Part shown: in pieces, positions 1 to 15,118 of the stretch
How the letters are laid out: every line of letters starts with the position of its first letter
Numbering within the stretch: the first letter of the stretch is position 1
Assembly: GCA_001483205.1 (NCBI GenBank)
Contig: JPPB01000189.1
Span: forward strand, 1 to 15,118
DNA from: an alpha proteobacterium 3107
GTDB taxonomy: Bacteria; Pseudomonadota; Alphaproteobacteria; Rhodobacterales; Rhodobacteraceae
Length of the DNA stretch: 15,118 bases
Reading direction: 5' to 3'
Made by a program: the position numbers and the translations under genes
The notes under the pieces: generated by a model
The model's input: only the letters and a program-made list of their open reading frames with translations
Database searches by the model: none
What the model was told of the DNA's origin: nothing

Positions 1-928
1 TCAGGCGGCCCTCATTCACAGGCAGGCCGTAGAACGCCGCGCCGTTCAGGGCAACAAAGGCCTCCAGCCGGTCAAGCGCGCCCTCTTCCCCGAACACCTG
101 CGCCAGAATCGGCATCGCGTTTGTCGCCGTGAAACACCCGGCGCAGCCACAGGCGGATTGCTTGGCGGCATCGGGATGCGGCGCGCTGTCAGTGCCGAGA
201 AAGAAGCGCGGATCGCCGGATGTGGCGGCGGCGCGCAGGGCCAGACGGTGCTCTTCACGCTTGGCGACCGGCAGGCAATAATAGTGCGGCCTGATCCCGC
301 CCGCCAGAATGTGATTGCGGTTGAGGATCAGGTGGTGAACGGTGATCGTCGCGGCCAGGTCATCATGGGCGCGGACATAGGCCACCGCTTGCCGGGTGGT
401 GACATGCTCCATCACCACGCGCAGGCCCGGCGTCCGGCGGCGGATCGGGTCAAGCACCCGGTCGATAAACACCGCCTCGCGGTCAAAGATGTCGATGTCG
501 GGGTCGGTAACCTCGCCGTGGACGCAGAGCGGCAGGCCGATTTCCGCCATGCGCTCCAGCACGCCGCGCACCTTGTCAAAGTTGCGCACCCCGGCGGCGG
601 AATGGGTTGTCGCCCCCGCCGGATAGAGCTTGACGGCGGTGATCAGGCCACGGGCACGGGCGGCGGCGACATCATCCGCGTCGGTGTCTTCGGTCAGATA
701 GAGGGTCATCAGCGGCTCGAACATCGCCCCGTCCGGCAGGGCGGCGAGGATGCGGCCCCGATAGGCGGCGGCCTTTGCGCCGGTTGTGACCGGGGGGGCG
801 AGGTTGGGCATGATGAGCGCGCGGGCGAAATGGCGGGTGGTTTCGGGCAGAACGGCGCGCAGCATCGCGCCGTCACGCAGGTGCAGGTGCCAGTCGTCAG
901 GGCGGCGAATGGTGATTTCCTGTCTCAT
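1..928 (-). CDS. pyrC: Dihydroorotase, PyrC (homodimeric class II), 3' end outside the window
   Basis: This enzyme cyclises N-carbamoyl-L-aspartate to L-dihydroorotate in cytosolic de novo pyrimidine synthesis. The reverse strand is open from the ATG at 926-928 to the window edge, giving 309 residues of the roughly 345 usual for the family. The N-terminus reads [14 protein letters not shown], with His14 and His16 as the expected metal ligands. [10 protein letters not shown] follows at about 40-49, and KLYPAGATT near 100 places Lys100 at the carboxylated bridging lysine. Further matches are [32 protein letters not shown] and CGCAGCF. The order and spacing match E. coli PyrC closely. No clear Shine-Dalgarno precedes the ATG; the leader is pyrimidine-rich. 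The gene is divergent from the iron-binding protein gene. Nothing looks broken apart from the window cut. The identification is family-level homology recognised by eye, and I am very confident of it. Confidence 0.97.
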
Positions 929-1624: not shown

Positions 1625-1653
1625 TTGACTTGAGTCATTTTGTCAGGTTTATC
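1625..1653 (+). promoter_or_regulatory. Candidate sigma70 promoter with overlapping palindrome upstream of the iron-binding protein gene
   Basis: TTGACT (1625-1630) is a five-of-six match to the -35 consensus. TTTATC (1648-1653) lies 17 bp downstream as a weak -10. The -35 overlaps the palindrome TGACT-TG-AGTCA (1626-1637), and the palindrome TTGATCAA lies just upstream at 1614-1621. The local AT-rich composition contrasts with the GC-rich repeats before it. Expression of FbpA-type genes is commonly iron-controlled, so an operator here is plausible. The palindrome does not match the Fur, Irr or RirA consensus well enough to name a regulator. Confidence 0.4.
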
Positions 1654-1686
1654 TCCCCCCACAACCCACAACCAATGGAATCACCC

Positions 1687-2709
1687 ATGTTCACCCGAAT
1701 ACCCCCCGCCCTTATCGCGACCGCTCTCCTGTCCGCCGCCACCACCCCGGCCCCGGCCCAAGAGGTCAACGTCTATTCCTATCGCCAGCCGGACCTGATT
1801 GCCCCGCTGACCGACGCCTTCACCGCCGAGACCGGCATCACCGTCAATGTCGTGCATCTGAGCAAGGGCATGGTCGAGCGGCTTCAGGCCGAGGGCGCGC
1901 GTTCCCCCGCTGATCTGGTGTTCACCGTCGATATTTCGCGCCTGAACGCGGTGGTCGGGGCGGGCCTGACCCAGCCGGTCAGCTCCGCAACCCTGACGGC
2001 CAACGTGCCTGCGCAATACCGCGACCCGGACAACCACTGGTATGGGCTGACCACCCGGGCGCGCATCGTCTATGCCTCGAAAGACCGGGTGGCGGATGGC
2101 GAAGTCACCACCTATGAAGACCTGGCCGACCCGAAATGGCAGGGGCGCATCTGCACCCGCTCGGGGCTGCACGCCTATATGGTCGCGCTGACCTCTGCGG
2201 TCATTCATCACCATGGCGAGGATGCGGCCCGCGACTGGCTGAATGGCCTGCGGGCCAACCTCGCACGCGCGCCGGAGGGCAATGACCGGGCGCAGGTCAA
2301 GGCGATCTGGGCCGGGGAGTGCGACATTTCGATCGGCAACACCTATTACATGGGCAAGATGCTGGAAAGTGATGAGCAACGCCAATGGGCCGACAGTGTG
2401 CGGATCGTGTTCCCGGCGTTTGAGGGCGGCGGCACCCATGTCAATATCTCTGGTGTGGCCATGACCGCCTCGGCCCCGAACCGGGACAATGCCCTGAAGC
2501 TGATGGAGTTTCTGAGTTCTCCGGCGGCGCAGGAAATCTATGCAGAGGCCAATTATGAGTATCCCGTCGCGCCGGGGACCGAACCTGTTGAGCTGGTCAG
2601 GGGCTGGGGCGCGTTCACCGCTGATGACGTGAACCTGATGGCTCTGGCGCGGTTGCGGCCTGTGGCGCTGAGGCTGACCGAAGAGGTCGATTACAACGCG
2701 GGGAACTGA
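1687..2709 (+). CDS. fbpA: Periplasmic Fe(3+)-binding protein of an ABC transporter (FbpA/AfuA/FutA family)
   Basis: This secreted protein captures ferric iron in the periplasm and hands it to an inner-membrane ABC permease. The first 24 residues form a Sec signal peptide with a probable cut after APA. The mature part begins EVNVYSYRQPDLIAPL, the family's N-terminal signature. It continues with ETGITVNV, the phrase LTTRARIVYASK, YEDLADPKWQGRICTRSG, NDRAQVKAIWAGECDISIGN, and the paired Tyr220-Tyr221 expected to ligate iron. HVNISG and EIYAEANYEYPV follow. At 340 residues it has the usual family length. I chose the ATG at 1687 because the signal peptide starts there and GGAA precedes it; in-frame alternatives are ATG at 1675 and TTG at 1630. 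A terminator follows directly and no permease or ATPase gene is adjacent, so it is an orphan component in this window. The family is certain; iron specificity is inferred from the family. Confidence 0.93.
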   Translation: MFTRIPPALIATALLSAATTPAPAQEVNVYSYRQPDLIAPLTDAFTAETGITVNVVHLSKGMVERLQAEGARSPADLVFTVDISRLNAVVGAGLTQPVSSATLTANVPAQYRDPDNHWYGLTTRARIVYASKDRVADGEVTTYEDLADPKWQGRICTRSGLHAYMVALTSAVIHHHGEDAARDWLNGLRANLARAPEGNDRAQVKAIWAGECDISIGNTYYMGKMLESDEQRQWADSVRIVFPAFEGGGTHVNISGVAMTASAPNRDNALKLMEFLSSPAAQEIYAEANYEYPVAPGTEPVELVRGWGAFTADDVNLMALARLRPVALRLTEEVDYNAGN

Positions 2710-2758
2710 TGGCTGGTCCCGCACGGGGGACGAACCCTGCCTGTGGAAAGGAAGGAAG

Positions 2759-2784
2759 GCCCCCGCCGGTGCGCGGGGGTTTTT
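2759..2784 (+). terminator. Intrinsic terminator after the iron-binding protein gene
   Basis: CCCCCGC (2760-2766) pairs with GCGGGGG (2773-2779) across a six-base loop, followed by TTTTT (2780-2784). The hairpin lies about 50 bp after the TGA of the iron-binding protein gene and should end that transcript, making the gene monocistronic. Confidence 0.88.
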
Positions 2785-3213
2785 CGGGGAGGAGGTGCAT
2801 AGTATTGAAAATACATTATATTTCTCTTTTTAAGGTCTTGATATTCTATCTTGAATTTTCCATATTCACCTTGCGACAGGTGAGACAGGCAACTCCAAGG
2901 ACCGAATGCCCTGAAAAGCCTTTGTATGATGGCCGTGCCGGGCGGGATGTGCGCAGACTCAGGTGTTGCCGGTCCTTGAGGCAGTTGAACCTGCGCCAAC
3001 CGGTGTAAGCACCAACCCGGCCTTGGCTGAATGAAAGTTCACTGGCAAGCCATCTGAAAAAAGACAACTTGACAGATTCGGATTTCTTTGTAACGAATGG
3101 GTAATATTTTGCGGGAGAGCCAATGATTTGAGGAAAATCCGCAAGATATGATGCCAGGCCATCCTTCGGGATGGTTCCAGCGGTGTGGGAATCGGGGGCA
3201 GGGAGGTAAAGCG
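2785..3213. other. AT-richer non-coding stretch between the terminator and the lipoprotein gene
   Basis: This 430-bp stretch has no ORF with recognisable protein features. Its first part (about 2800-2870) is strikingly AT-rich compared with all neighbours and contains the small palindrome GTATT-GAA-AATAC (2802-2814). A longer inverted relation follows. CAAGGACCG (2896-2904) pairs with CGGTCCTTG (2970-2978), and CAACT (2890-2894) pairs with AGTTG (2983-2987), enclosing about 65 bases. GGTG-TAAG-CACC forms a further small hairpin near 3002-3013. A TTGACA hexamer occurs at 3069-3074 but has no well-spaced -10. This may be a long 5' leader, a small RNA, or decayed mobile DNA; I cannot decide which. 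Confidence 0.5.
2838..2866 (+). promoter_or_regulatory. Candidate sigma70 promoter in the AT-rich stretch
   Basis: TTGATA (2838-2843, five of six) and CATATT (2861-2866, four of six) are separated by exactly 17 bp. It points toward the lipoprotein gene but would leave a leader of about 350 nt, which includes the inverted repeat at 2890-2987. It could alternatively drive a small RNA. No other well-spaced promoter was found nearer the gene. Confidence 0.35.
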
Positions 3214-3260
3214 ATGAACAGAATCAGGCAGGAAGGTAAACCGATGAACAGAATCAGGTA
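3201..3260 (+). repeat. 30-bp tandem duplication that copies the ribosome-binding site and start codon
   Basis: Positions 3201-3230 and 3231-3260 are near-identical 30-bp units, differing at three positions. Each contains a purine-rich ribosome-binding site (GGGAGG or GGAAGG), a 7-base spacer, ATG and the codons for MNRIR. Because 30 is a multiple of three, the two starts (3214 and 3244) are in the same frame and lead into the same lipoprotein. Confidence 0.92.
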
Positions 3261-4518
3261 TGATTATCCGGGGTTTGCCCTGGCCACTGCGGCAATGATC
3301 GCGTTGTCCGGTTGTGGTGGGGGGAGTTCCGACCCTGGTGGTGGGGGGAGTTCCGACCCTGAAGGGGCAAATTTGCCTCCAACCGACTTGACAGACCAAC
3401 GGATTGAAACCCTGTCACAAGCAAAGCTCCTTAAGGAGGCTGGCATTGAGCAGGACGACCTTGCGGCGGTATATTCAGCGTTGAAGGACAGAGTCGACAA
3501 CGCAGGCAACACCAATGACAAAACCGCAAATAAGATCCTTATCCGCTCTTCTTCGAAATTGGAAAACGTCACTCCGGCAGTCGTCGATCGGGATGGCAAC
3601 ATTATTACTCCGGAAGTCGTCACTCCGGGAGACGTCACAGTGACCGTCGAGGTGAAATATGATGCTAACGGTGATGGCCCCTTCTTTGTGGTGAAGCGCA
3701 CTGACGCATCTGACGAATGGATGGTCGACACAGAGACTGACACGCCCAAACATCTCGAAATCGACGGCACGAATGGTATTGTGCTGGCAAAGGCATTCGA
3801 CGGAACCAGCAGGGACGGAACGGTTCTGCTCTATGCCATGTCGGATAGGGAAGATGCGGCTGATGACGACTATCTTTCCGGCGGGGTCTGGTTGTTCGTT
3901 CCCGAAGACCTGACGAACGCCCAAAATTCAGATTACGTCGCAGAGGCGTTCGCGACGGGCGGTGTTCCTTACAGTAGTAGCAGCAACTTTGTGCCTTTGA
4001 CAGGCGAGGCCACCTATCAGGGACCGGCGATCGGGGTGTATGCGTATACTTATGCTACGACGTCGAATTTAGTCAGCGACGAAAAAGTCGAGACAGGCGG
4101 CTTTACAGCCATCGTCAGCATGACGGCCGACTTCGCCACCGACACCTCGGATGGGTTTCTAACAAGAGGCTCCATTGGCAGTTTCGTATTCGACAATGGC
4201 GAAAAGCTGTTGGGATCAGAAACAATAAGCCTTACCCAAAGCAAAGATTTTGAAGACGGTGGTAGTGGTGTCTTCAGTGGCATACTCTTTCCTCCTGATC
4301 CAGACGTATTACGTTTCGACGATAATAGTGGATGGTCCGCCCAGTTCTTCGGTGAGAATGTAGCGGGAGAGAAACCGGCATCAATCGCCGGAACATTCCA
4401 TGGGTCCATGGAATGGGATACCACGGTGGAATGGGATACCACGACGGACGACCCCCCCCTCGTTCGCAAACTTGACCTGCTGGGCGCTTTCAACCTCGGG
4501 AAACAGCCGGAGGAGTGA
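3244..4518 (+). CDS. Surface lipoprotein with TbpB-like C-terminal beta-barrel
   Basis: This is a 424-residue predicted outer-membrane lipoprotein. The N-terminus MNRIR is followed by a hydrophobic segment ending in the lipobox LSGC, with Cys24 as the lipidation site. A Gly/Ser linker (about 25-40) follows, then a polar middle region, and from about residue 254 a barrel-like C-terminus. Its marks, GEATYQGPAIGVYAY, GWSAQFFGE (about 363), AGTF (382-385) and terminal LLGAFNLGK, are those of the transferrin-binding-protein-B barrel domain found in many surface lipoproteins. The ligand cannot be read; iron or haem capture is possible given the neighbouring iron-binding protein. ATG 3244 gives a compact signal peptide; ATG 3214 is equally well supplied with a ribosome site and adds ten residues, and ATG 3148 lacks one. 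Base composition is clearly less GC-rich than its neighbours, hinting at acquisition. No partner receptor or Slam-type translocator is present in the window. Confidence 0.82.
   Translation: MNRIRYDYPGFALATAAMIALSGCGGGSSDPGGGGSSDPEGANLPPTDLTDQRIETLSQAKLLKEAGIEQDDLAAVYSALKDRVDNAGNTNDKTANKILIRSSSKLENVTPAVVDRDGNIITPEVVTPGDVTVTVEVKYDANGDGPFFVVKRTDASDEWMVDTETDTPKHLEIDGTNGIVLAKAFDGTSRDGTVLLYAMSDREDAADDDYLSGGVWLFVPEDLTNAQNSDYVAEAFATGGVPYSSSSNFVPLTGEATYQGPAIGVYAYTYATTSNLVSDEKVETGGFTAIVSMTADFATDTSDGFLTRGSIGSFVFDNGEKLLGSETISLTQSKDFEDGGSGVFSGILFPPDPDVLRFDDNSGWSAQFFGENVAGEKPASIAGTFHGSMEWDTTVEWDTTTDDPPLVRKLDLLGAFNLGKQPEE
3314..3360 (+). repeat. 24-bp tandem duplication encoding the lipoprotein linker
   Basis: Two identical copies of a 23-bp string (3314-3336 and 3338-3360, period 24 bp) encode Gly-rich GGGSSDP twice, directly after the lipidated cysteine. 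The repeat lengthens the flexible tether between the lipid anchor and the folded part without shifting the frame. Confidence 0.9.
4409..4443 (+). repeat. 18-bp tandem duplication encoding EWDTT twice
   Basis: The 17-bp string TGGAATGGGATACCACG occurs at 4409-4425 and 4427-4443 (period 18 bp), giving EWDTTVEWDTTT in the last loop of the barrel-like domain, between the AGTF and LLGAF motifs. It is in frame and probably extends a loop between two strands. Confidence 0.88.
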
Positions 4519-4838
4519 TTTGCGGCGGGACGGGTAAAACCACCGGATATGTTTGCGGCCCAGATGACTGATCGTCCGGGCAGCAGGCACTCCGGCGGTT
4601 CATCACTTCAGACCCTGAATCACAAACCGCCTACAGGTCTGCACCCGGACGCGCCGGAACTCTGCAATAGTCTTCAACAACCCGCAATAAATTGTATAAA
4701 AGCCTTAACGCCTGTGCTAAGCTCGCGGGGCGACTGAACGGAAACCTCTCCGGCAAACGCTGGTGCGGTTCAGCCAACTTACTCGCGTCCCTCTGCGGAC
4801 GCCCGGAACAGGGTCAATACAGGTAATCGGGAACAGAG
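4519..4838. other. Intergenic region upstream of the efflux/PKS gene set
   Basis: About 320 bp without a supportable gene. No strong terminator follows the lipoprotein stop codon. CTGAAC (4734-4739) and GTTCAG (4768-4773) form a short inverted repeat that could be an operator. The short open frames seen here have no protein-like features. The region most probably carries the promoter of the adaptor-permease-PKS unit. Confidence 0.5.
4673..4700 (+). promoter_or_regulatory. Weak promoter candidate for the adaptor-permease-PKS unit
   Basis: TATAAA (4695-4700) is a good -10 hexamer. Its best -35 partner, TTCAAC (4673-4678) at 16 bp, matches only three of six bases. It lies about 140 bp before the adaptor start. 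The segment around 4680-4705 is locally AT-rich against a GC-rich background. Confidence 0.3.
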
Positions 4839-6020
4839 ATGGCAGAGAAACCGAACGCCCCGCAAAGCCCGCCGGATCAGGCCCGATGGCTCGGTCTTGC
4901 TCAGGTGGTCCTGATCCTCGCGGTCATTGCCGTTGCCCTCTATTTCGCCCGCGCCCCTGACCGGGCACAGCGCGACACCGTTTCAGCCCTGTCACCGGAA
5001 GCCACCCGGCCCGTCGTCAGGGTCATCCAACCGGCAGAGGCCGACAAATCGCCGACCGTGGAGCTGACGGGCGCGGTCAGGCTGTCGGAACGGGCGAGGA
5101 TCAAACCCGAAGTCGCGGGCCGCGTAATCTGGGTTTCGCCGAAATTCAAAAGCGGGGGCACGCTGGCCGCAAACGAAACCTTCGTCAGGATCGACCCCGC
5201 CGAATACGCCCTTCAGGTAACCGCGGCTGAAATAGCAGTCAGGGCGGCAGAGGCGCATGTCGGGATCGAAAAAGCCGAGGACGCAGAAGCGGCAAGGGCC
5301 TTTGCCGAGGCCAATCCCGACGCCGAGGCCACCGCCCGGATTGACCGCGCACCGTTTATCGCCCGTGCAGAGGCCCGGCTGATGAAGGCCCGCACCGATC
5401 TGGACCTGGCAAAGCTGCGGCTTGAACGCACGAATATCTCGCTTCCCTATCCCAGCCGGGTCATCAACTCCCGGATCGAGGTTGGCGAATATGTCAGCCC
5501 TGACCTGGTTGGCCCCTCGCCGTTCCTGGGCGTCGTCTATCGCACGCAGGCAGTGCAGGTCAGTGCGCCTATCGCGCTGGAGGATATGCACTATCTTCAC
5601 CCGGTGATCGGCCGTTCCGCGCAAATCCGTGCGCAGGGCCGAACATACGAGGCCGAGGTGGTGCGCACCTCGTCCGTGGTCGCTCCGCAGACGCGGCTGG
5701 CGACGGTGTTCCTGCGGTTTGCCGGGGATCATGCGCCGGAGTCCCTGCCGCTGCCGGGTGCTTTTGCCGAAATCTCGATCGAAGGGCCGGAGCATGACGC
5801 GGCCTATGTGCTGCCCGAGGCGGTGTTGCAGGAACAGGGCCGTGTCTGGGTGGTGCGGGACGGTGCCCTGAGCGCGTTCACCCCCCGAACGCTCGGGCGC
5901 ACGGATGAGGGCTGGGTGGTTGATGTGTTCGACGCAGGCGAGGGCGTGGTTGTCGGCACGCTGCCGGGTGCCAGAGAAGGGCTGGCGGTGGCAGTGGCGG
6001 ACCCCGCATCGTCGGAATAA
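4839..6020 (+). CDS. RND efflux periplasmic adaptor (membrane fusion protein, HlyD/AcrA-like)
   Basis: This subunit links an RND inner-membrane pump to an outer-membrane channel across the periplasm. It has 393 residues. A single transmembrane anchor spans about residues 17-37 (WLGLAQVVLILAVIAVALYF), with no lipobox, so it is membrane-anchored rather than lipidated. The first lipoyl-like half follows (RIKPEVAGRVIWV, GGTLAANETFVRIDPAEY). An Ala/Glu-rich helical hairpin runs from about 125 to 205. The second lipoyl half (NISLPYPSRVINSRIEVGEYV) and beta-barrel and membrane-proximal regions (VLPEAVLQEQGRVWVV) complete it. It ends 12 nt before the permease start, so the two are almost certainly co-transcribed. 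The ribosome site before ATG 4839 is weak (GGGAACAG). No outer-membrane factor gene is in the window, so a TolC-like channel must be encoded elsewhere. The substrate is unknown from this protein alone. Confidence 0.92.
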   Translation: MAEKPNAPQSPPDQARWLGLAQVVLILAVIAVALYFARAPDRAQRDTVSALSPEATRPVVRVIQPAEADKSPTVELTGAVRLSERARIKPEVAGRVIWVSPKFKSGGTLAANETFVRIDPAEYALQVTAAEIAVRAAEAHVGIEKAEDAEAARAFAEANPDAEATARIDRAPFIARAEARLMKARTDLDLAKLRLERTNISLPYPSRVINSRIEVGEYVSPDLVGPSPFLGVVYRTQAVQVSAPIALEDMHYLHPVIGRSAQIRAQGRTYEAEVVRTSSVVAPQTRLATVFLRFAGDHAPESLPLPGAFAEISIEGPEHDAAYVLPEAVLQEQGRVWVVRDGALSAFTPRTLGRTDEGWVVDVFDAGEGVVVGTLPGAREGLAVAVADPASSE

Positions 6021-6032
6021 CGGAGGCTGATC

Positions 6033-9000
6033 ATGGCCACTACGGACACCGGGGCCACCGGACCGGCAACTCAGCCGGGGGCTGCCATGAAATCAGGGCC
6101 GATTGCATATTTCGCGGGCAACCCTGTCGCTGCCAATTTGCTTATGCTGTTTTTCATCATCGGCGGCATCATTTCCGGCACCCACCTGACCATCCAGCAT
6201 TCCCCTGAGATCGACCTTCGGACGGTTTCGGTCACGGTGCCCTTTCCGGGGGCGTCCCCCAGAGAAGTCGAGGAGGATGTCAACCGCCGTATCGAGGAGA
6301 GCGTCATCGGGCTTCCGGGGGTGGAGCGGGTTATCGGCACCGCGACTCAGGGCCGTGGCCACATCGACATCGAACTGTCCGCTTTTGCCGACGCCGCGAA
6401 TGTGCTCAATGACGTTCAAAATGCGGTGGACAGCATCGAAAACTTTCCGCCGCTCACCGCCGATCAGCCGGAAGTGAAACTCAAGAGCCTGGTGCTTGAG
6501 GTGATGACCCTGGCGGTGTCGTCCGCCACCGCCGACGAAAACACGATCCGCACCGCCGCCGAGAACCTGCGCAGTGATCTTCTGCAACTGCCGTCGGTTT
6601 CGCAGGTGCAGCTCAAGGGAACCCGCAACCGCGAAATTTCCATAGAGCTAAGCGAGGAGGAATTGCGCCGCCACAACCTTTCCTTCGGTCAGATTGCCAA
6701 TATCGTGCAGCGCACATCGCTCAACCTCACGTTCGGGGAACTGCGCACCGAAGCGGGCGGGTTTGTCCTTCACACCATGTCCAAACGGCGCGTCGGCGAG
6801 GAGTTTGCGGACATTCCGCTGCTCACACAGGTTGACGGCACCATCGTCACCCTTGGCGACGTTGCCGAGATTCGCGACGGATTCGTGGACAAGCCGGTCG
6901 TCGCACGGGTCAACGGCCAGCCGACCGTGCTGGTCCGCATCGATGCAACCCAACAGCAGTCGATTGTCCGCATGGCCCGTGAAATCAAGGGCTGGCTCGA
7001 AAGCTACACGCCACCACCGAACCTTGCCGTCACCATCTGGAACGACCGGGCGCAGCCCGCCGTGGACCGCCTGCGCGGGATCATCGGCAACGGGATCATC
7101 GGTGCAACTCTGGTCTTCTTGTCGCTGGTGCTTTTGTTCGACCTGCGTGTCGCGACCTGGATCACGGTTGGCATCCCGCTTTCGTTCATCGGCTCTCTGC
7201 TTTTCTTTGCGCCTGCGGGCCTTAGCCTGAACATAGGCACGATTTTCGCCTTCTTCCTGATGGTCGGCATCGTAGTGGATGACGCCGTGGTGGTCGGCGA
7301 AAGCATTGCCGCAGAGCGCGAGGGCGGCAAGGGTGCGCGGGAGGCGGCAATATCCGGCGCGCGGGCCGTGGCGGGGCCGATCACCATCGGCGTATTGACG
7401 ACCTTGCTGGCATTTCTGCCGTTTCTTTTCGTCACCACCACCAACTATCAGATTGTCAACGTGTTTCCCTATGTCGCGTTCTTCGTGCTTCTGGTCTCAC
7501 TTATCGAGGCATTCTTCATCCTGCCCGCCCACCTGTCGCATGAGGGGCGATGGAGCGCGTCTCCGCTCAGCGACATTCAGGACCGGCTGAGGGCGTGGCT
7601 GGAGGGCGTTCGTGATCGTGTTGTCGCCCCTGCGGTGTCCTGGGCCGTGCGCAATATCGCGCTGACACTGCTGGCCGCGGTTCTGGTGGTGGGGGTTGGG
7701 GTATTTCTTCTGGCCTCGGGGATGGTGCGAACCATCATTCTGGACAAAGACGCCAGCATTTCGGGGGATGTTCAGGCAAACATCCGGCTTCCTATCGGTG
7801 TGCCGTTCGAGCAAACGCTGGCAACGGCGGAGCGGTTCGTCGAGGCGGGGCACGCCGTCAATGAACATCTTGGCGGAACGGCGGTCCATTCGGTCAGCAT
7901 CATCGTCGGCAACACCGTGGCGGCGCAGTTGCGGGATGACGACACGGGCAATGCCAGCCATCTGGCCTCGGTAAAGCTGCATCTGCATAACCGGCCCGCC
8001 CGCACCGCGTCCCCGAGGGAAATCGAACGGTTGTGGCGAGAGTATGTCGGCGACATTTCCTATCTGGAACGGGTGGAGTATCAGACCACCCGCGTTCAGG
8101 ACAACCCGACCGTGGCCTATGCGCTCAAGCATGACGATGCGGACACGCTGGCGATGGCGGCGGCGCGGCTAAGGGCTTTCATGGCTGAGATACCGGGCAT
8201 CTATGAGCTTTGGGACAGCATGGCCCCCGGCAAGAGCCACTTTGAAATCCAACTGACACCGGCGGGACAGGCGGCGGGGCTGACCCCTGCCTCTGTCGGC
8301 AGACAGTTGCGGGCCAATTTCAACGGTGTGGAGGTTCAGCGGATTCAGCGCGGACATGACGAAATCAAGGTGATGCTGCGATACCCGCCTGAGCGGCGCG
8401 CAAGCCTTGATGAGCTGTCCAGAGAGCACATCCTGAGCCTCGCCGGAGAGCGAATCGGCGGTCGCTCAGCGGGTGGGGACGACCCGGCCTATACCGAGGT
8501 GCCGCTGTCCACGGTGGCGCGCCTGGTCGAAAAGCGCGAGATGGCGACCCTGATGCGGATTGACGGCAAACAGACCGCACTGGTCAGTGCGCAGGCCGAC
8601 ACGGCGGTGGTCACCCCGATCACGGCGCGGCGGCAGATCGAGGCGGACATCCTTCCCGCCCTGCTTGATGCCTATCCCGGCCTGAAGATCGAGCACCACG
8701 GAAGCGCACGGGATTCAGGGGCCATGCTGGAAACCCTGAGCCTGCTGGTGCCGCTGGTGCTCTTGGCCATGTATGCGCTCATGGCCACCTTCCTGCGCAG
8801 CTACTGGAAGCCGTTTGTCGCCGTGGCGGGTATTTTCATCGCCTTTGCGGGGGCGGTTCTGGGCCACTGGATACTGGGGTGGGACTTCACCGCCATGTCG
8901 CTGTTCGGGGTGATCGGGGTCTCCGGCGTTGTCGTGAACGATGCACTGGTTCTGCTGGACCGTTACAACACGATCCGGCGAGAGAACGGGGACATTCCGG

Positions 9001-9227
9001 CGATTGCAGCGGTGTCCGCCGCGACCCGACACCGGTTTCGCGCCGTGCTGCTGACCAGCCTGACCACGGTTCTGGGGCTGTCGCCCCTGCTCTACGAACG
9101 CAGCGATGAGCTGATGTTTCTGGTGCCGCTGGTCGTCAGTATGCTGAGCGGCCTCGTGCTGTCAGGGTTGTTCATCCTGCTCATTCTGCCAGCGCTGGTC
9201 ATGGTTGCAGAGGGCCGACACGAATAA
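6033..9227 (+). CDS. RND-family inner-membrane efflux permease (AcrB/HAE1-like)
   Basis: A 1064-residue proton-driven pump of the resistance-nodulation-division superfamily, of normal length and duplicated topology. TM1 lies at about 34-50, TM2-6 after residue 349, TM7 near 541-565 and TM8-12 after residue 900. The large periplasmic loops fall between. The N-terminal signature VPFPGASPREVEEDV is present. TM4 has GIVVDDAVVVGE with Asp416 and Asp417 as the proton-relay pair. In TM10 the sequence GVVVNDALVLLD puts Asn969 where AcrB has the relay lysine, a feature of a divergent subfamily. The start at 6033 has a strong GGAGG; an in-frame ATG at 6087 (MKSGPIAYF) would drop 18 polar residues. It follows the adaptor by 12 nt and precedes the PKS by 57 nt. 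Export of the PKS product is a reasonable inference; a general drug pump is the alternative. Confidence 0.95.
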   Translation: MATTDTGATGPATQPGAAMKSGPIAYFAGNPVAANLLMLFFIIGGIISGTHLTIQHSPEIDLRTVSVTVPFPGASPREVEEDVNRRIEESVIGLPGVERVIGTATQGRGHIDIELSAFADAANVLNDVQNAVDSIENFPPLTADQPEVKLKSLVLEVMTLAVSSATADENTIRTAAENLRSDLLQLPSVSQVQLKGTRNREISIELSEEELRRHNLSFGQIANIVQRTSLNLTFGELRTEAGGFVLHTMSKRRVGEEFADIPLLTQVDGTIVTLGDVAEIRDGFVDKPVVARVNGQPTVLVRIDATQQQSIVRMAREIKGWLESYTPPPNLAVTIWNDRAQPAVDRLRGIIGNGIIGATLVFLSLVLLFDLRVATWITVGIPLSFIGSLLFFAPAGLSLNIGTIFAFFLMVGIVVDDAVVVGESIAAEREGGKGAREAAISGARAVAGPITIGVLTTLLAFLPFLFVTTTNYQIVNVFPYVAFFVLLVSLIEAFFILPAHLSHEGRWSASPLSDIQDRLRAWLEGVRDRVVAPAVSWAVRNIALTLLAAVLVVGVGVFLLASGMVRTIILDKDASISGDVQANIRLPIGVPFEQTLATAERFVEAGHAVNEHLGGTAVHSVSIIVGNTVAAQLRDDDTGNASHLASVKLHLHNRPARTASPREIERLWREYVGDISYLERVEYQTTRVQDNPTVAYALKHDDADTLAMAAARLRAFMAEIPGIYELWDSMAPGKSHFEIQLTPAGQAAGLTPASVGRQLRANFNGVEVQRIQRGHDEIKVMLRYPPERRASLDELSREHILSLAGERIGGRSAGGDDPAYTEVPLSTVARLVEKREMATLMRIDGKQTALVSAQADTAVVTPITARRQIEADILPALLDAYPGLKIEHHGSARDSGAMLETLSLLVPLVLLAMYALMATFLRSYWKPFVAVAGIFIAFAGAVLGHWILGWDFTAMSLFGVIGVSGVVVNDALVLLDRYNTIRRENGDIPAIAAVSAATRHRFRAVLLTSLTTVLGLSPLLYERSDELMFLVPLVVSMLSGLVLSGLFILLILPALVMVAEGRHE

Positions 9228-9284
9228 TCGTCACGCCCCGAAAATCGCGAATGCCGCCACAGAATGCAGACAGGGGATTTGACC

Positions 9285-12200
9285 ATGGATATGACAGCCC
9301 GGACCAGACCGGACGCCACACCGTCAGACCTGCCCCCCCTGCACATGCCCGTCGCCATCGTCGGATACAGCTATCGCCTGCCCGGCGGGTTGCGCGACGA
9401 CGCGGCATTCTGGCAACTTCTGGCCGAGCGCGAGATTGTGCAGGAGCCGATCACCGAGCGCTATGGCAGGGGCTACCGGCCTGTTGGCGGGTTCTCCGGG
9501 CCGGGGCGGTTTGCCAGCCCCCATGAAGGGCTGATCCGGGACGATGTGGAAAAACTGTTCGACCGCGGCCTGTTTGGCCTGTCCCAGAACGAAATGACAT
9601 CGACGGACCCCCAGATGAGGATGCTGCTGACCTGCACCTGGGAGGTCTTTGAGCGCGCAGGCTGGGATCTGCATTCGCTGCACAACAGCCCCACCGGGGT
9701 TTTCATCGGCGCGCAGACTCCGCCGGTGGCAAACTGGCGGCCTATGCGCGGCGCGTCCCCGTTTGATGTGACAAGCATCAGTCTGGCCATGCTGGCCAAC
9801 CGCATTTCCTATCATTTCAACCTGATGGGGCCGTCCACCACCTATTGCACCGCCTGCTCTGCCAGCCTGACCGCCCTGCACACGGCGATAAACGCCCTGC
9901 AAAACGGCGATTGCGAGCAGGTTGTTGTCGGCTCTGTCAACTATCTGGGAACCGCCCGGCTAAGCGCCTCTTTCAATGCCCTTGGCGTCATCAGCCCGGA
10001 CGGTAAGTGCCATTCCTTCGATGCCGAGGCCAACGGTTACATGCGATCCGAGGGCGCGTTCGCCTATGCACTCAAACCGCTGGTCGCGGCAGAGCGGGAC
10101 GGCGACCGCATTCTGGCGGTGGTCGAGGCCACAGCGGTGAATGCAGCGGGGGCCGCTGATGAAGGCGTCGGCTTGTCCCAGGGGCGCTATATCACGGCAC
10201 CCACCCGTCATGCCCAGGTAGAGCTGATGCGGCAAGCCTGCGCCCGGGCGGGGCGCGATCCGGGGGATTTCGACTATATCGAGGCCCACGCGACCGGCAC
10301 GGTGGTCGGCGACCGGATCGAGGGCAACGCAATAGCAGAGGCATTCAGCGGCAGCACCCGCGACACCCCGTTGCGCCTGTCAAGCGTCAAGAGCAATCTC
10401 GGCCATATGGAAGCAGCGGCGTTCCACTGCGCCTTGCTCAAGGTGCTCCTGATGATTGAGCGGCGCATGTTTGCGCCGACTTCCAGAAATTTCCTGGTCC
10501 CGAACCCGGAGATCGACTTTGACAGATGCCCGATGCAGGTGCAGACCGTTTGCGAACCTTTCCCCGAACGCCCGGCGGTGATCGGGATCAATTCATTCGG
10601 CTTTGGCGGGGCCAACGGGCATTGCGTGGTGCGGGAGTATCGCCCGCCCCGGCCCGTCAGCCGCTCGGTGCCGACGGCCCCGAAAGCGGGCTATATGGTT
10701 CCGTTGTCGGCGCGCAGCTCCGGGGCGCTGACCCGAAGCGCGGAACGCTTGCGCGATACGTTGGGCGAGCAACAGGATTTGGACCTTTACACCATCGCAG
10801 GCAATCTTGGCCGCCGCCGCACCCATTTCGCCGCGCGCACATCCTTTGCGGTGAGGGACCGGCAGGGGCTGGTTGCGGCGCTGGAGGCGTTCATCCGCGA
10901 TCCGTCACCGGTCACGACCCTGGCCGGGGAAGACCGGCGGCGACTGGCGATGGTGTTTTCCGGTCAGGGCACCCAGTGGGCGGGGTGCGGGCGCGTGCTC
11001 TATGACGCTGACCCGGTTTTCCGCCGCGCCATTGACGCCATTGAGGCCCATTGGCGGGAACACTCTGACATCTCTTTGCGGGCGGCCTGCTTTTCCGCCG
11101 GGCAGGAAGAGCTGAACGAGGTTCGTCTGGCCCAGCCTGTCATCTTCATGGTTCAGTGCGCGCTGGTCGAGTTGCTCAAGACCTGGGGCGTCTACCCGAA
11201 TTGCGTGGTCGGGCACAGCTCCGGCGAGGTCGCCGCCGCCTATGCCGCCGGGCATCTGTCGCTGGCCGACGCAACCCGTCTGGTGTTCCACCGCGCCACC
11301 CTGCAACAACGCACCGCCGGATCAGGCCGGATGCTGGCCATCGGTCTCGACCGGCCGGGGGTGGAGGAACTGCTCACATCCATGGGCATGTCCTTCCGTT
11401 TCGGAGACGATGGCGAAACCGGGCCGGTTCAGGTGGAAATCGCCTGTGAGAACGCCCCCGCCAACACCGTCATCTGCGGCAGGGAAACCGCGTTGCGCCC
11501 GGTGATGGAGGCATTGGACCAGCGCGGCCTGCAAAACCTGCTGCTGCCTGGCAATATCGCCTTTCACTCCGCCGCCATGGACCCGATCAGAGGGGACGCG
11601 CTGGCCGCCCTGTCCTTTCTCGACACATGCGGGGCCGGGGCGGAAGCGCCTTTCGTCTCTTCCGTCACCGGCGCGGTCACGACCAGGCTGGACAGCGCCT
11701 ATTGGTGGTCGAACATCCGTCAGCCGGTGCGGTTCGCCGCCGCAATGGAGACCATTCAGCGCGAGCGCCGTGCCGATGTGGTGCTGGAGATTGCCCCGCA
11801 TTGCGCTCTGCAACCCACCATTGCGCAGTGTCTGGAAGGGAACACCCGGCCAGTGACCTGCCTGCCGACGCTGATGCGCGACAGCGATACCTGCCTCGGC
11901 TTTCAGGAAACTCTGGGGGGTCTGTTCCGGTCCGGCGTAACGCTCGACTTCGCTGCTCAATACCCGCGCCCCGAACCTGTTGCCCATCTGCTTCCCGGAC
12001 ATCCCAGGGACGAACAGGCCGCAATGGACATCATGTGCGACAACGAAATGTTTGTCCGGCAGGGGGAATATTCCCACGGGCCGCTGGTGGGGCATCGGGT
12101 TCCCTGCGCGCATATGCTGTTTGAGGCCCGGCTTTCGGATCAGGATTTTCCCTGGATGGCTGATCACCGGGTCCATCACGCGGCGATCATGCCTGCGGCG

Positions 12201-15118
12201 GGCTATATCGAGCTTGTCCTTGAGGCTCTGGGCGGCGTCCCGGTCTATTTCGAGGCGCTCGAATTTCTGCAACCCTGCCCGATCCCCAAAAAGGCAGTGC
12301 GGTTGCAGACGGCCTTGCAGCCGACCGACGACAACCGGGATGAATTCACCTTTACAATTTCCTCGCGCCCCTATGATGTGGATGCAGAGAGCGAACATCA
12401 TTGCCGGGGAAAGGTGCGTCTTGCGGGCGATGATCACCGGGTGGATGTGCCCCAAAACCTGACCGACATTGATACGACCCATTTCGCGCCCTCATCCCTT
12501 GCCGACGATCAGAACTTTTATGAGCGTCTGGAGGCGGTGCTGAGCGAAACCTTCCAGTATGGCCCGTATTTCCGCACCATCCGGCGGGTGCTGGTGGACA
12601 AGGTTTCACGGGCCTATCTGTTCGATGTGGAAATGGACGAAGGCTTGTGGACGGCGGGCCGGGACGAAGGCTATGTCTGTTGCCCGCCGTTGTTGGACGG
12701 CGGCCTTCAGATATTCCTCAACCACCTGCTGACCGCCGCCGATCTGTTCGCCATACCGCAGCGCGCCGAGGCGATGACCTTTCTGCGCCCGCCGACCGGG
12801 CCACGGATCACCTGTCATGTCACCCGGCCACGCGATGACTGGATGGATGCCAATGAACGGGGACAGTATTCGGTGCAGCGCGGTGAACGGTCCGGTGGCA
12901 GCATCAGCTTTTATGACACAGAGACCGGGCATCTTGTCGCCCATATCGGCGAATACACCTATTTCACGTCCAACCCGCGCTGGAATGATCTGGCCGAGAG
13001 CAAGCACCGGATTGTCTGGCAGCCCAAATTCATTTCCGACACCCCGGCGCTGATTGACCGCCTGCCGGTGGGCGAGATTGACCCCGGCGCGCTGATCGCG
13101 TCGTTTGAAGGGCCGGGCGAGGGCGTGCGCCGCACCTGCCGCGTCATTGAGTTTGCCGGGGGTCGTGCGCCGGATCAGGCATTCCTGAACGACCTCATCG
13201 ACGACCTGTCCGGCGGGGACAGCCATGGCGAATACTGGATTGTCGGGGACAGCGATGAAGAGGCGCGGGATTTCTATGATGCCTATCACCGCTACGATGC
13301 TGCCCTGCGTTTCACCGACATTGACCCGTCCGCGCGGCGAGCGCCGGAGACCGGCCTGCTGCGTCGGGCCGCCGCCGAGATCATCCTGCTGCACGCTGAC
13401 GACAGCCCCCCGACACCGGAGCGGTGGGCGCTGGCCCTGCGGCTGGCTGTGGCGGGCGGGCTGGCGCTGGTGCGCCATGGCGAGGGGCAGGTGATCGAAC
13501 CCGGCGGGGGCTGGACGACCCTGCGGGCGGGGCGGCGTTTGACCCTGATGAAAGCGCTTACAGAATATACTGATGCCCCTGACGATACGGATGATGATGC
13601 AGAGCTTCCCGGCCCGAGATGGGTGTTGGGGGAACCGGGCAGTGCGGCCTCTGACTGGGTGTCCGTGCTCGACCGCCCGGATGTGGTGCATCCGATTCCC
13701 GATGAGGATTGGGCCAGCCCCGCGCTGCACATGCTGGGTGACTGGCCCGATATGAAAGCGCTTACATCCATCGACTTTTTCTGCGGCAATGACCCCGACG
13801 ACCCGACGGGCGAACGCCTGACCGCAGGGTTCATCGCCTTTGTTCAGGCCCTAGTGTCCTGCCGGATCGAACAGGCGGATCGCTGGTGCCGCCTGACCGT
13901 GGTGACGCAAAGAGCCGCCCATGATGTCGAAAACCCGCGCGGCGCGGTGCTCTGGGGTGCGGTCCGCAGCATGGCGATGGAAAGCGGTGAGGAGGCAAAG
14001 ATTGATTTCCGCCTGGTTGATCTGGGTGATTCCGGTGATTTGCAGACTCTGGCCCGGCTTGCGCGGTGCGACCTGCGCGAGCGGGAGCTGGCGGTGCGCG
14101 AAAACCGCCTGTGGGTGCCGCGGATGACCCGCATTCGCAAGCGGTATGCACCGGTGTCCGCGGGCGAGTCCTGCACCTACAGGCTGGCCCTGGACAACGC
14201 GGGACAAATCGCCGGTCTTCAGATGAAGACCTGCGCGTTTCCGCCGCTCGGGGCGGAAGATGTGGAAATCGAGGTCACCGCGGCGGCGCTCAACTTCCGT
14301 GACATTATGGTCACGCTGGGGCTTTTGCCCGCGCTGGCCTATGAGCGTTCGGCACTCGGGCACATGATCGGCATGGAGGCAAGCGGCATTGTGCGCCGGG
14401 TGGGTGCAGATGTGACGCACTGCGGGACAGGCGACCGGGTGATGTTCATCGGCGGCGGCTGCATCGCCAATCGGGTGACGGTGAACCAGCATCTTGTCTT
14501 TGCCAAACCCGATAACCTCAGCATGGAAGAGGCCGCTTCGGTCTTGTCGGTTCATGTCACCGCGTATTATGCGCTCATCCATATGGCGCGCCTGCGCAAG
14601 GGCCAGCGGGTGCTGATCCACTCTGCCATGGGCGGGGTCGGTCAGGCCGCCATTGCCCTGGCCCGACATGCAGGGGCCGAGATTTATGCAACCGCCGGAA
14701 GCAAGAGCAAGCGCGAGCATCTGCGGGCGCTGGGCGTGCGCGCGGCCTTCGATTCCCACAGCTTTGACTGGTATGACGGACTGATGGCGGCCACCGGGGG
14801 CGAGGGCGTCGATGTGGTGCTCAATTCCCTTGCCGGGCGACATGTCAGGCTTTGCCTTCAGGCGCTGAGGCCGGGCGGCTGGCATTGCGAGATCGGCAAG
14901 GTGGATATTTACGCGGACAGAGAGCTTGGCCTGCGTATCTTTCGCAAGAACCTGCGCTTTGCAGCGATTGATATTGACCGCCTGATGCTCGACGACCCGG
15001 AAATGACGCGCGCGCTTTCACAGACCTGCCTTGACCTGATTGCAGGCGGGGCGCTGCCGCCGCCGCCCGTCACTGTTTTCCCCTTTGCGGATTACGCCGG
15101 GGCACTGCGACAGATGGC
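9285..15118 (+). CDS. Type I polyketide synthase, KS-AT-DH-psiKR-ER (C-terminus outside the window)
   Basis: A modular fatty-acid-synthase-like enzyme; 1944 codons are open to the edge. Domains in order are as follows. Ketosynthase (about 20-450) has active Cys191 in TACSAS, His335 in EAHATGT and His374 in KSNLGH. Acyltransferase (about 555-860) has FSGQGTQ, nucleophile Ser645 in GHSSGE and selectivity motif IAFH ending at His761, closer to malonyl-type HAFH than methylmalonyl-type YASH. Dehydratase (about 920-1230) has His961 and Asp1138 with Gln1142. A structural pseudo-ketoreductase half (about 1300-1620) contains LWGAVRSMAMES. Enoylreductase (about 1632-1940) has NFRDIM and the NADPH loop GGVG at 1783-1786. 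A catalytic KR and an ACP should follow beyond the edge. Such a set would fully reduce its chain. There is no room for a C-methyltransferase. AGGGG lies 8 bases before ATG 9285; ATG 9291 is an alternative. Co-transcription with the RND genes is likely. The product is unknown. Confidence 0.95.
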   Translation, partial: MDMTARTRPDATPSDLPPLHMPVAIVGYSYRLPGGLRDDAAFWQLLAEREIVQEPITERYGRGYRPVGGFSGPGRFASPHEGLIRDDVEKLFDRGLFGLSQNEMTSTDPQMRMLLTCTWEVFERAGWDLHSLHNSPTGVFIGAQTPPVANWRPMRGASPFDVTSISLAMLANRISYHFNLMGPSTTYCTACSASLTALHTAINALQNGDCEQVVVGSVNYLGTARLSASFNALGVISPDGKCHSFDAEANGYMRSEGAFAYALKPLVAAERDGDRILAVVEATAVNAAGAADEGVGLSQGRYITAPTRHAQVELMRQACARAGRDPGDFDYIEAHATGTVVGDRIEGNAIAEAFSGSTRDTPLRLSSVKSNLGHMEAAAFHCALLKVLLMIERRMFAPTSRNFLVPNPEIDFDRCPMQVQTVCEPFPERPAVIGINSFGFGGANGHCVVREYRPPRPVSRSVPTAPKAGYMVPLSARSSGALTRSAERLRDTLGEQQDLDLYTIAGNLGRRRTHFAARTSFAVRDRQGLVAALEAFIRDPSPVTTLAGEDRRRLAMVFSGQGTQWAGCGRVLYDADPVFRRAIDAIEAHWREHSDISLRAACFSAGQEELNEVRLAQPVIFMVQCALVELLKTWGVYPNCVVGHSSGEVAAAYAAGHLSLADATRLVFHRATLQQRTAGSGRMLAIGLDRPGVEELLTSMGMSFRFGDDGETGPVQVEIACENAPANTVICGRETALRPVMEALDQRGLQNLLLPGNIAFHSAAMDPIRGDALAALSFLDTCGAGAEAPFVSSVTGAVTTRLDSAYWWSNIRQPVRFAAAMETIQRERRADVVLEIAPHCALQPTIAQCLEGNTRPVTCLPTLMRDSDTCLGFQETLGGLFRSGVTLDFAAQYPRPEPVAHLLPGHPRDEQAAMDIMCDNEMFVRQGEYSHGPLVGHRVPCAHMLFEARLSDQDFPWMADHRVHHAAIMPAAGYIELVLEALGGVPVYFEALEFLQPCPIPKKAVRLQTALQPTDDNRDEFTFTISSRPYDVDAESEHHCRGKVRLAGDDHRVDVPQNLTDIDTTHFAPSSLADDQNFYERLEAVLSETFQYGPYFRTIRRVLVDKVSRAYLFDVEMDEGLWTAGRDEGYVCCPPLLDGGLQIFLNHLLTAADLFAIPQRAEAMTFLRPPTGPRITCHVTRPRDDWMDANERGQYSVQRGERSGGSISFYDTETGHLVAHIGEYTYFTSNPRWNDLAESKHRIVWQPKFISDTPALIDRLPVGEIDPGALIASFEGPGEGVRRTCRVIEFAGGRAPDQAFLNDLIDDLSGGDSHGEYWIVGDSDEEARDFYDAYHRYDAALRFTDIDPSARRAPETGLLRRAAAEIILLHADDSPPTPERWALALRLAVAGGLALVRHGEGQVIEPGGGWTTLRAGRRLTLMKALTEYTDAPDDTDDDAELPGPRWVLGEPGSAASDWVSVLDRPDVVHPIPDEDWASPALHMLGDWPDMKALTSIDFFCGNDPDDPTGERLTAGFIAFVQALVSCRIEQADRWCRLTVVTQRAAHDVENPRGAVLWGAVRSMAMESGEEAKIDFRLVDLGDSGDLQTLARLARCDLRERELAVRENRLWVPRMTRIRKRYAPVSAGESCTYRLALDNAGQIAGLQMKTCAFPPLGAEDVEIEVTAAALNFRDIMVTLGLLPALAYERSALGHMIGMEASGIVRRVGADVTHCGTGDRVMFIGGGCIANRVTVNQHLVFAKPDNLSMEEAASVLSVHVTAYYALIHMARLRKGQRVLIHSAMGGVGQAAIALARHAGAEIYATAGSKSKREHLRALGVRAAFDSHSFDWYDGLMAATGGEGVDVVLNSLAGRHVRLCLQALRPGGWHCEIGKVDIYADRELGLRIFRKNLRFAAIDIDRLMLDDPEMTRALSQTCLDLIAGGALPPPPVTVFPFADYAGALRQM

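Follow-up and report, generated by a model that had tools for sequence, protein, structure and literature searches.

An RND pump gene pair directly upstream of the polyketide synthase gene swfA: possible export of a sulfated lipid by a sponge symbiont

SwfA is one of two mono-modular polyketide synthase (PKS) families that have been reported to be widespread in sponge microbiomes (PMC3908369, PMC4245539). In the text of its original description (Della Sala et al. 2013, PMC3908369) it is a sponge-symbiont synthase with a single module and the domain order KS-AT-DH-ER-KR-ACP. Its partners are swfB, coding for a thioester reductase and a sulfotransferase, and swfC, coding for a B12 radical SAM protein, which is missing in one published swf cluster. 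The signatures given in that text are FSGQGTQW, GHSSGE, QCALVEL and IAFH in the AT domain, HATGT in the KS domain, and no DPQQ; IAFH points to malonyl-CoA (PMC3908369).

Different proposals have been made about the product. The idea of a primary sulfate comes from the 2013 authors, who expressed a swf cluster in E. coli with no new compound resulting and left the role of SwfA open (PMC3908369). A later statement, made in passing in 2022, is that SupA and SwfA make methyl-branched fatty acids; the passage leaves sulfate unmentioned (PMC9864124).

The window and its synthase

The window, that is, the whole stretch of DNA analysed, is contig C189 (15,118 bases) of a genome bin of 2.17 Mb in 337 contigs. 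Its features are collected in Table 1.

Table 1. Features of the window, in order along the contig, with the domains of the synthase after its gene
Feature	Position	Strand	Remarks
pyrC	2-928	-	TIGR00856
Solute-binding protein	1630-2709	+	
456-aa protein	3148-4518	+	without Pfam or NCBIfam match
RND periplasmic adaptor (membrane fusion protein), 393 aa	4839-6020	+	hydrophobic N-terminal stretch; RND_mfp match
12 nt gap	6021-6032	+	ribosome-binding-site-like GGAGG ahead of permease start 6033
RND inner-membrane permease, HAE-1/AcrB type, 1064 aa	6033-9227	+	ACR_tran match
57 nt gap (36 nt with in-frame ATG at 9264)	9228-9284	+	no terminator-like or + strand promoter-like site
swfA, type I PKS/FAS, open at contig end	9285-15116 (alternative start 9264)	+	KS-AT-DH-(spacer)-ER
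KS domain	9348-10631 (approximate limits)	+	active site CTACSAS; HATGT; DPQM in place of DPQQ
AT domain	10953-11939	+	FSGQGTQW, GHSSGE, QCALVEL, IAFH
DH domain	12081-12860 (approximate limits)	+	HRVHHAAIMP, LLDGGLQ
ER domain, cut by contig end	14190-15116	+	AMGGVGQAA

The earlier note on this DNA had described adaptor, permease and PKS as lying on one strand, separated by terminator-free gaps of 12 and 57 nt, and both the ORF coordinates and a scan for sites agree with it: neither gap holds a terminator-like or + strand promoter-like site in the sequence scan. Over positions 2600-15118, terminator-like sites number 9 versus 10.3 in shuffles. Judged by this layout, the three genes form an apparent operon.

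The genes at the other side of the window were considered as parts of the system and rejected, as the solute-binding protein, the 456-aa protein and pyrC have 0 homologues in 80 swf loci (tblastn, E 1e-5). Among the best 120 matches of pyrC, those following its own copy are 78-83% identical, and the named ones come from roseobacters and related bacteria (Roseovarius, Ruegeria, Marinovum and others), by which the host is most probably an alphaproteobacterium belonging there. The 456-aa protein gave no match in a PADLOC scan and sits in a region of lower GC content, about 53%. Tandem repeats with units of 24 and 22 bases (GCGGGTAAGCCC... and CTTATCCGCGGG...) are present at positions 1034-1186 and 1469-1528, one array within the frame after the pyrC start and the other in the gap preceding the solute-binding protein. 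Near-identical copies of swfA (P0008, on a 2.5 Mb contig) and pyrC (P0247, 100% identical, on a 308 kb contig) lie on different contigs, and the adjacency of pyrC and swfA is seen in the window contig only.

The domain order in the window is KS-AT-DH-ER, the contig end falling in the ER domain. The PKS carries every SwfA signature published in the excerpted text, with DPQM at the position where PMC3908369 gives I or V. These motifs were looked for in 81 rows (80 swf loci plus the window) and in 19 control genes, which are other PKS genes of the window's order. GHSSGE is present in 81/81 rows and IAFH in 80/81, the window included, FSGQGTQW in 77/81 and QCALVEL in 70/81 (both as relaxed patterns), and HATGT in 80/81, versus 0/19 controls for each of them; DPQQ is found in none of the 81 swf rows versus 2/19 controls. 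Since all published signatures are present and none of the order controls has any of the five, the window PKS is, by sequence, SwfA, a known family published in 2013 and without a proven product. Thus, the suggestion of the earlier note that this locus was the best candidate for an undescribed system is not sustained for the PKS (PMC3908369), and an undescribed PKS family is rejected on the motif match.

Relatives of the protein number 4030. The best 120 are 68-78% identical to it (P0008, 99%), cover 95-100% of the window protein and, apart from P0008, are about 2,270-2,390 aa long; the named ones include metagenome-assembled genomes of Gammaproteobacteria, Gemmatimonadales and Candidatus Palauibacter. 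P0008 (2,239 aa), 99% identical over the shared part, extends into KR; its frame stops after KR without ACP, about 100 aa short of the family. Further relatives add ACP after KR. The PKS had also been called fully reducing: KS, AT, DH and ER are indeed in the window, but KR and ACP lie outside it, so full reduction would follow from P0008 and the other relatives. The SwfA tail was not found in the window's bin, in a search run without a positive control whose query matched only the KR of another PKS. The bin also holds a second PKS with two KS domains and a methyltransferase domain (3,452 aa; contig C125, 2112-12470), which adjoins an alpha/beta hydrolase on the opposite strand.

The pump pair and its occurrence beside swfA

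The permease matches ACR_tran across nearly its full length (E 2e-121), and the adaptor matches RND_mfp with E 3e-25 and 88.8 bits, below the model cut-off of 94.9. A full-length AcrB-type permease with an adjoining adaptor, as in HAE-1 RND tripartite pumps, is found here. Against NCBIfam subfamily models the permease stays far below the cut-offs (332.7 versus 1250). The Asp-Asp pair of TM4 is retained, and in the alignment Asn stands in TM10 at the position of the MdtB Lys. This Lys is presumably part of the RND proton relay, and therefore proton coupling may differ in the window's pump; the residue may not be needed by all RND pumps, so that the Asn weakens no more than the assumption that the pump works in the standard AcrB manner. 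The window holds no gene for an outer-membrane channel. One frame of the OEP/TolC family is present elsewhere in the bin (contig C311), together with a few other RND permease stretches (C13, C295).

The swf loci used for comparison are the best 80 of 166 confirmed stretches from one scan of named genomes and, judging by the isolate names, presumably come from sponge sampling projects. Counts of RND, SwfB, SwfC and PAPS genes were made by tblastn, since the ORF caller chose antisense frames over RND genes in some loci (L023, L044, L066, L095). A homologous RND pair flanks swfA in 17/80 loci. Sixteen of these include the permease (L022, L023, L031, L033, L042, L044, L057, L058, L061, L066, L073, L075, L077, L092, L095 and L099), and the other, L021, has the adaptor alone (49% identical) at a contig end. 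These swfA-adjacent homologues are 44-64% (permease) and 41-57% (adaptor) identical to those of the window.

Eleven of the 17 pairs are co-directional with swfA and upstream of it, either with a gap of 7-252 nt to the first listed swfA start (L023, L057, L066, L073, L075, L092) or with 1.1-1.8 kb (L031, L042, L044, L077, L099). The other six are divergent (L021, L022, L033, L058, L061, L095); in L061 the distance to swfA is as much as about 3.8 kb, and the interval contains other frames. Two further swf copies have the pump as well: L149, in which SwfA, SwfC, SwfB, adaptor and permease follow each other on one strand, and L148, where it lies beside SwfB. The genome carrying L149 (G159) possesses another swf copy, L036. 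A short remnant of an RND permease (about 41% identical over 99 aa) is found between CysNC and swfA in L094 (7956-8297).

The remaining 63 loci show no pair in the flanking DNA available; 45 of them have at least 5.5 kb of upstream DNA and 18 have less, including L024, with about 0.5 kb. Among the 60 loci with at least 5.5 kb upstream, the pair is present in 15, distributed as 5/6 in Acidobacteriota, 10/23 in Pseudomonadota and 0/31 in the others. The condition under which the idea of a joint system had been proposed to fail, namely that homologous PKS genes mostly lack an adjacent RND pair, therefore applies to the set as a whole but not to Acidobacteriota, and Pseudomonadota come near half. 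A control with the PKS loci of the window's own order (L002-L020) was uninformative, each having about 1.5 kb of flank.

The permease was also searched for in 50 genomes, consisting of 48 of the 63 pair-less swf genomes (15 were left out) and two positive controls. Among the matches listed, identities fall into two groups, 54-66% and up to 42%; the swfA-adjacent permease of L095 is an outlier between them, at 44%. The high-identity group is represented in 13/48 swf genomes without an adjacent pair. In two of these the pair turned out to be linked to swf genes after all, on one strand behind the second swf operon in G159 (L149) and beside SwfB in G180 (L148). In four (G153, G154, G160, G189) the permease neighbourhood is cut by contig ends, and in seven (G157, G187, G178, G193, G174, G181, G184) the permease type lies away from visible swf genes, with a contig end within 1.5 kb on one side of the unlinked pair in G157 and G184. 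In four genomes (L137-L140) the neighbours of the same RND pair are pyrD, a gene for a HAD phosphatase and one for an NCS2-type permease; nine loci have relatives of this NCS2-type permease near swf genes too. Two Caldilineaceae (Chloroflexota) loci, L070 and L076, have swfA and the RND pair elsewhere in the genome (L147, L150), the permease frame of L147 containing a stop. Chloroflexota are usually described as being without an outer membrane, and an RND pair is odd there.

The permease type is well populated in the protein database, the best 120 matches all being at least 62% identical. Five contig sizes (477618, 38770, 1199951, 89630 and 1594530) appear in the best-120 lists of both the permease and SwfA, which is expected if the same contigs carry both genes. 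The permeases closest to that of the window form a group at 74-80% identity, and one member of it, P0146 (75%), comes from a contig of one of these sizes.

The pair could also be just an ordinary multidrug pump, carried along with swf islands or placed beside swfA by chance, the SwfA product staying inside the cell. The absence of the pair from 63/80 swf loci would suit such a pump, as would the seven genomes in which the permease type is unlinked, with four cases beside pyrD and the NCS2-type permease, and the fact that the family matches are multidrug pumps. However, 19 of the 30 swf genomes that have the pump type (17 plus 13) have it adjacent to swf genes, 4 being cut by contig ends and 7 having it elsewhere, whereas we estimate, with kinship uncorrected, that random placement in about 4 Mb would give such adjacency in less than 1%. 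Against it stand also the occurrence of the pair in both orientations and the absence of the permease type from the other genomes of two overlapping samples. Permease matches in the order sample are at most 37% identical among those listed (38/148 other genomes match at E 1e-100), and in the phylum sample, with 2 candidates scored per genome, 0/397 other genomes match at E 1e-200, the 1/398 being the window's own. On balance, we regard an ordinary pump as rather unlikely.

Partner genes and gene exchange

SwfB, a thioester reductase fused to a Sulfotransfer_3 domain, is present in 67/80 loci by tblastn: 66 have it downstream of swfA and on its strand, and L047 has it upstream. The 13 loci without SwfB end at most 2.8 kb past the matched part of swfA, and swfA itself should extend about 1.2 kb. 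The motifs TG.TGF.GRF, GY.W.K, R.GTT and THR.P followed by SW.S are kept in at least 90% of the 60 aligned copies, which are those from ORF clustering; on the basis of family knowledge we take them to be the NADPH, catalytic and PAPS sites. SwfC is found in 54/80 loci, 45 times downstream on the same strand (tblastn). In the window's bin, neither SwfB nor SwfC was found by searches that had no positive control.

Genes related to PAPS are also met near swfA. According to tblastn, with the families checked on examples, APS kinase is present in the flanks of 17/80 loci and CysD in 11/80, versus fewer than 1 expected by our estimate, which reckons with about 14 kb beyond swfA at each locus and with one or two genes of this kind in each genome; no APS kinase is seen in the flanks of the other 63. 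In L031 and L077 the APS kinase gene is located between the permease and swfA, on the opposite strand. In L057 a single strand carries, in this order, adaptor, permease, swfA, swfB, a partial CysD match and, after some other frames, CysNC. A PPTase-type gene is present in 5 loci.

Seven Gemmatimonadota loci have CysD and CysNC upstream of the swf genes, preceded by a second type of RND permease, which shares about 36% identity with that of the window. This second permease type is present in L026, L049, L062, L063, L071 and L100, as well as in L093, of which the last 44 codons remain at a contig edge. The second-type permeases are 95-100% identical to each other, though their swfA genes fall in separate groups. 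From these sequences, it looks as if swf operons had been exchanged at one place behind this permease.

The window's genes themselves appear to have travelled. In the order sample, PKS matches are at most 40% identical per listed segment (76/148 other genomes match at E 1e-50), and a quick tree built from 81 SwfA rows places four sequences of Acidobacteriota (Bryobacterales, Terriglobia) as the sister group of the window, with support 100. Both swfA and the permease look acquired from outside the order. Seven of the eight rows of the window's SwfA group are RND-linked, the eighth, L024, having too little upstream DNA to judge. When the RND label is placed on the SwfA tree, it changes 9 times versus 16.4 with shuffled labels (0/500 as low). 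Pump linkage is clustered on the SwfA tree, yet it was gained or lost several times.

With all 17 loci, a Mantel test of the SwfA tree against the permease tree gave r 0.37 (p 0.06); leaving out the two long branches, L077 and L095, raised this to r 0.53 (p 0.0002), and thinning to 11 loci gave r 0.34 (p 0.02). Given this incomplete agreement, we reject a strict co-evolution of synthase and pump and consider re-assortment likely. Taking together the absence of the pair from most loci and its sometimes being elsewhere, the few PAPS neighbours and the partial agreement of the trees, the pump is at most an optional partner of swf.

Proposed product and comparison with known systems

Our reading, held with moderate confidence, is that the window contains the pump and synthase genes of the swf locus of a sponge symbiont in which Swf enzymes make a reduced, sulfated, SDS-like lipid that the RND pair exports together with a TolC-type channel. 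From malonyl-CoA, SwfA would iteratively assemble a saturated acyl chain on its ACP. Where the locus is complete, as it usually is, the thioester reductase of SwfB would free the chain as an aldehyde or alcohol, and its sulfotransferase would then sulfate the chain end with PAPS; in loci that have SwfC, this enzyme probably methylates the chain. The expected product is an anionic, SDS-like alkyl sulfate, which adaptor, permease and a TolC-type channel encoded elsewhere may carry from the inner membrane or periplasm through the outer membrane. For the window's organism we infer the operon, the product, its export by the window's pump and also its sulfation, the latter because the window is without KR, ACP, swfB and swfC.

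That the pump recurs beside swfA in other bacteria suggests a sulfated lipid as the product and its export from the cell. To the primary-sulfate idea the present analysis adds the pump and the PAPS neighbourhood. RND pumps are listed, in the excerpted text of PMC8277102, as expelling SDS, bile salts and fatty acids, so an SDS-like lipid would be a fitting substrate. The earlier note had proposed a make-and-export unit with a tripartite RND pump replacing MmpL; such a unit for a reduced lipid is the best match both to the repeated finding of the pair next to homologous PKS genes and to the conservation of the partner with reductase and sulfotransferase, but the linkage is missing at 63/80 loci.

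Alternatively, the product might not be a sulfate ester, either because the SwfB sulfotransferase makes a leaving group only or because a plain methyl-branched fatty acid is formed. Sulfation with elimination of the curacin type is one possibility raised in the excerpted text of PMC3908369, and methyl-branched fatty acids are what the passing statement on SwfA gives (PMC9864124). However, curacin-type elimination follows a thioesterase step (PMC3908369), and SwfB has a thioester reductase instead of a thioesterase, which fits an alcohol end; we judge a product other than a sulfate ester unlikely. Still less probable to us is mere self-protection, in which the pump clears a detergent-like swf product from the periplasm with no delivery: it would suit both the compounds that RND pumps clear (PMC8277102) and a patchy linkage, as of an optional protection gene, but the sequence holds nothing that separates protection from delivery.

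If the sulfated lipid is indeed exported, an HAE-1 type pump would be linked to a lipid made by the cell itself, and a lipid trait would have spread across phyla within one animal habitat. Together, the recurring RND pump and the PAPS genes point towards a single class of product, an exported sulfated lipid, and the place to look for the swf product would be outside the cells, in the polar anionic fraction. More tentatively, and with some doubt on our side, swf loci could represent modular make-sulfate-export systems that sponge symbionts from at least nine phyla share through gene transfer. In them, SwfA, SwfB and SwfC, with the PAPS and PPTase genes, would produce a branched alkyl sulfate; this natural anionic surfactant would be released into the sponge by RND pumps from two or more distinct lineages, which joined the locus on more than one occasion.

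In the main texts of the open-licence swf literature considered, neither a link of swf to an RND pump nor one to PAPS genes was found; the term RND is absent from the excerpted text of PMC3908369, and both RND and transporter are absent from those of PMC4245539 and PMC9864124.

Several described systems resemble the locus in part. The capsule-lipid synthases WcbR/RkpA are also mono-modular type I PKSs, about one third identical to swfA pieces (PMC3908369); the window, however, has SwfA motifs and is without capsule genes, and membership is rejected because the motifs are unfitting. The sup cluster shares a mono-modular PKS widely found in sponges (PMC4245539), but supA was amplified with DPQQ primers, whereas the window has DPQM and the SwfA motifs.

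The mycobacterial Mas/Pks2 and MmpL systems likewise have a one-module reducing PKS beside an RND-superfamily transporter, and among NCBIfam models the window PKS matches best that for Pks2, whose name refers to sulfolipid-1 synthesis. The Mas-type likeness seen at first stands as regards domain order and not as regards the score, which is far below the curated cut-off (756.6 vs 2400 bits). Furthermore, the AT motif of the window is of malonyl type and its transporter is of the ACR_tran/HAE-1 type with an adaptor, not MmpL (HAE-2). Membership of Mas/Pks2 is rejected by score and motifs.

With HAE-1 RND pumps such as AcrB, MdtB and MexB the window shares the near full-length ACR_tran match, the adjoining adaptor and the Asp-Asp of TM4; it differs in the Asn for Lys in TM10, in subfamily scores far under the cut-offs and in having no adjoining channel gene. 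The published swf cluster agrees with the window in the PKS signatures and in the domain order within the window, and with its relatives in the partners swfB and swfC (PMC3908369). The published KS has I or V where the window has DPQM, and the gene tables in the excerpted text list neither an RND pair nor PAPS genes, whereas the window has the RND pair directly upstream of swfA.
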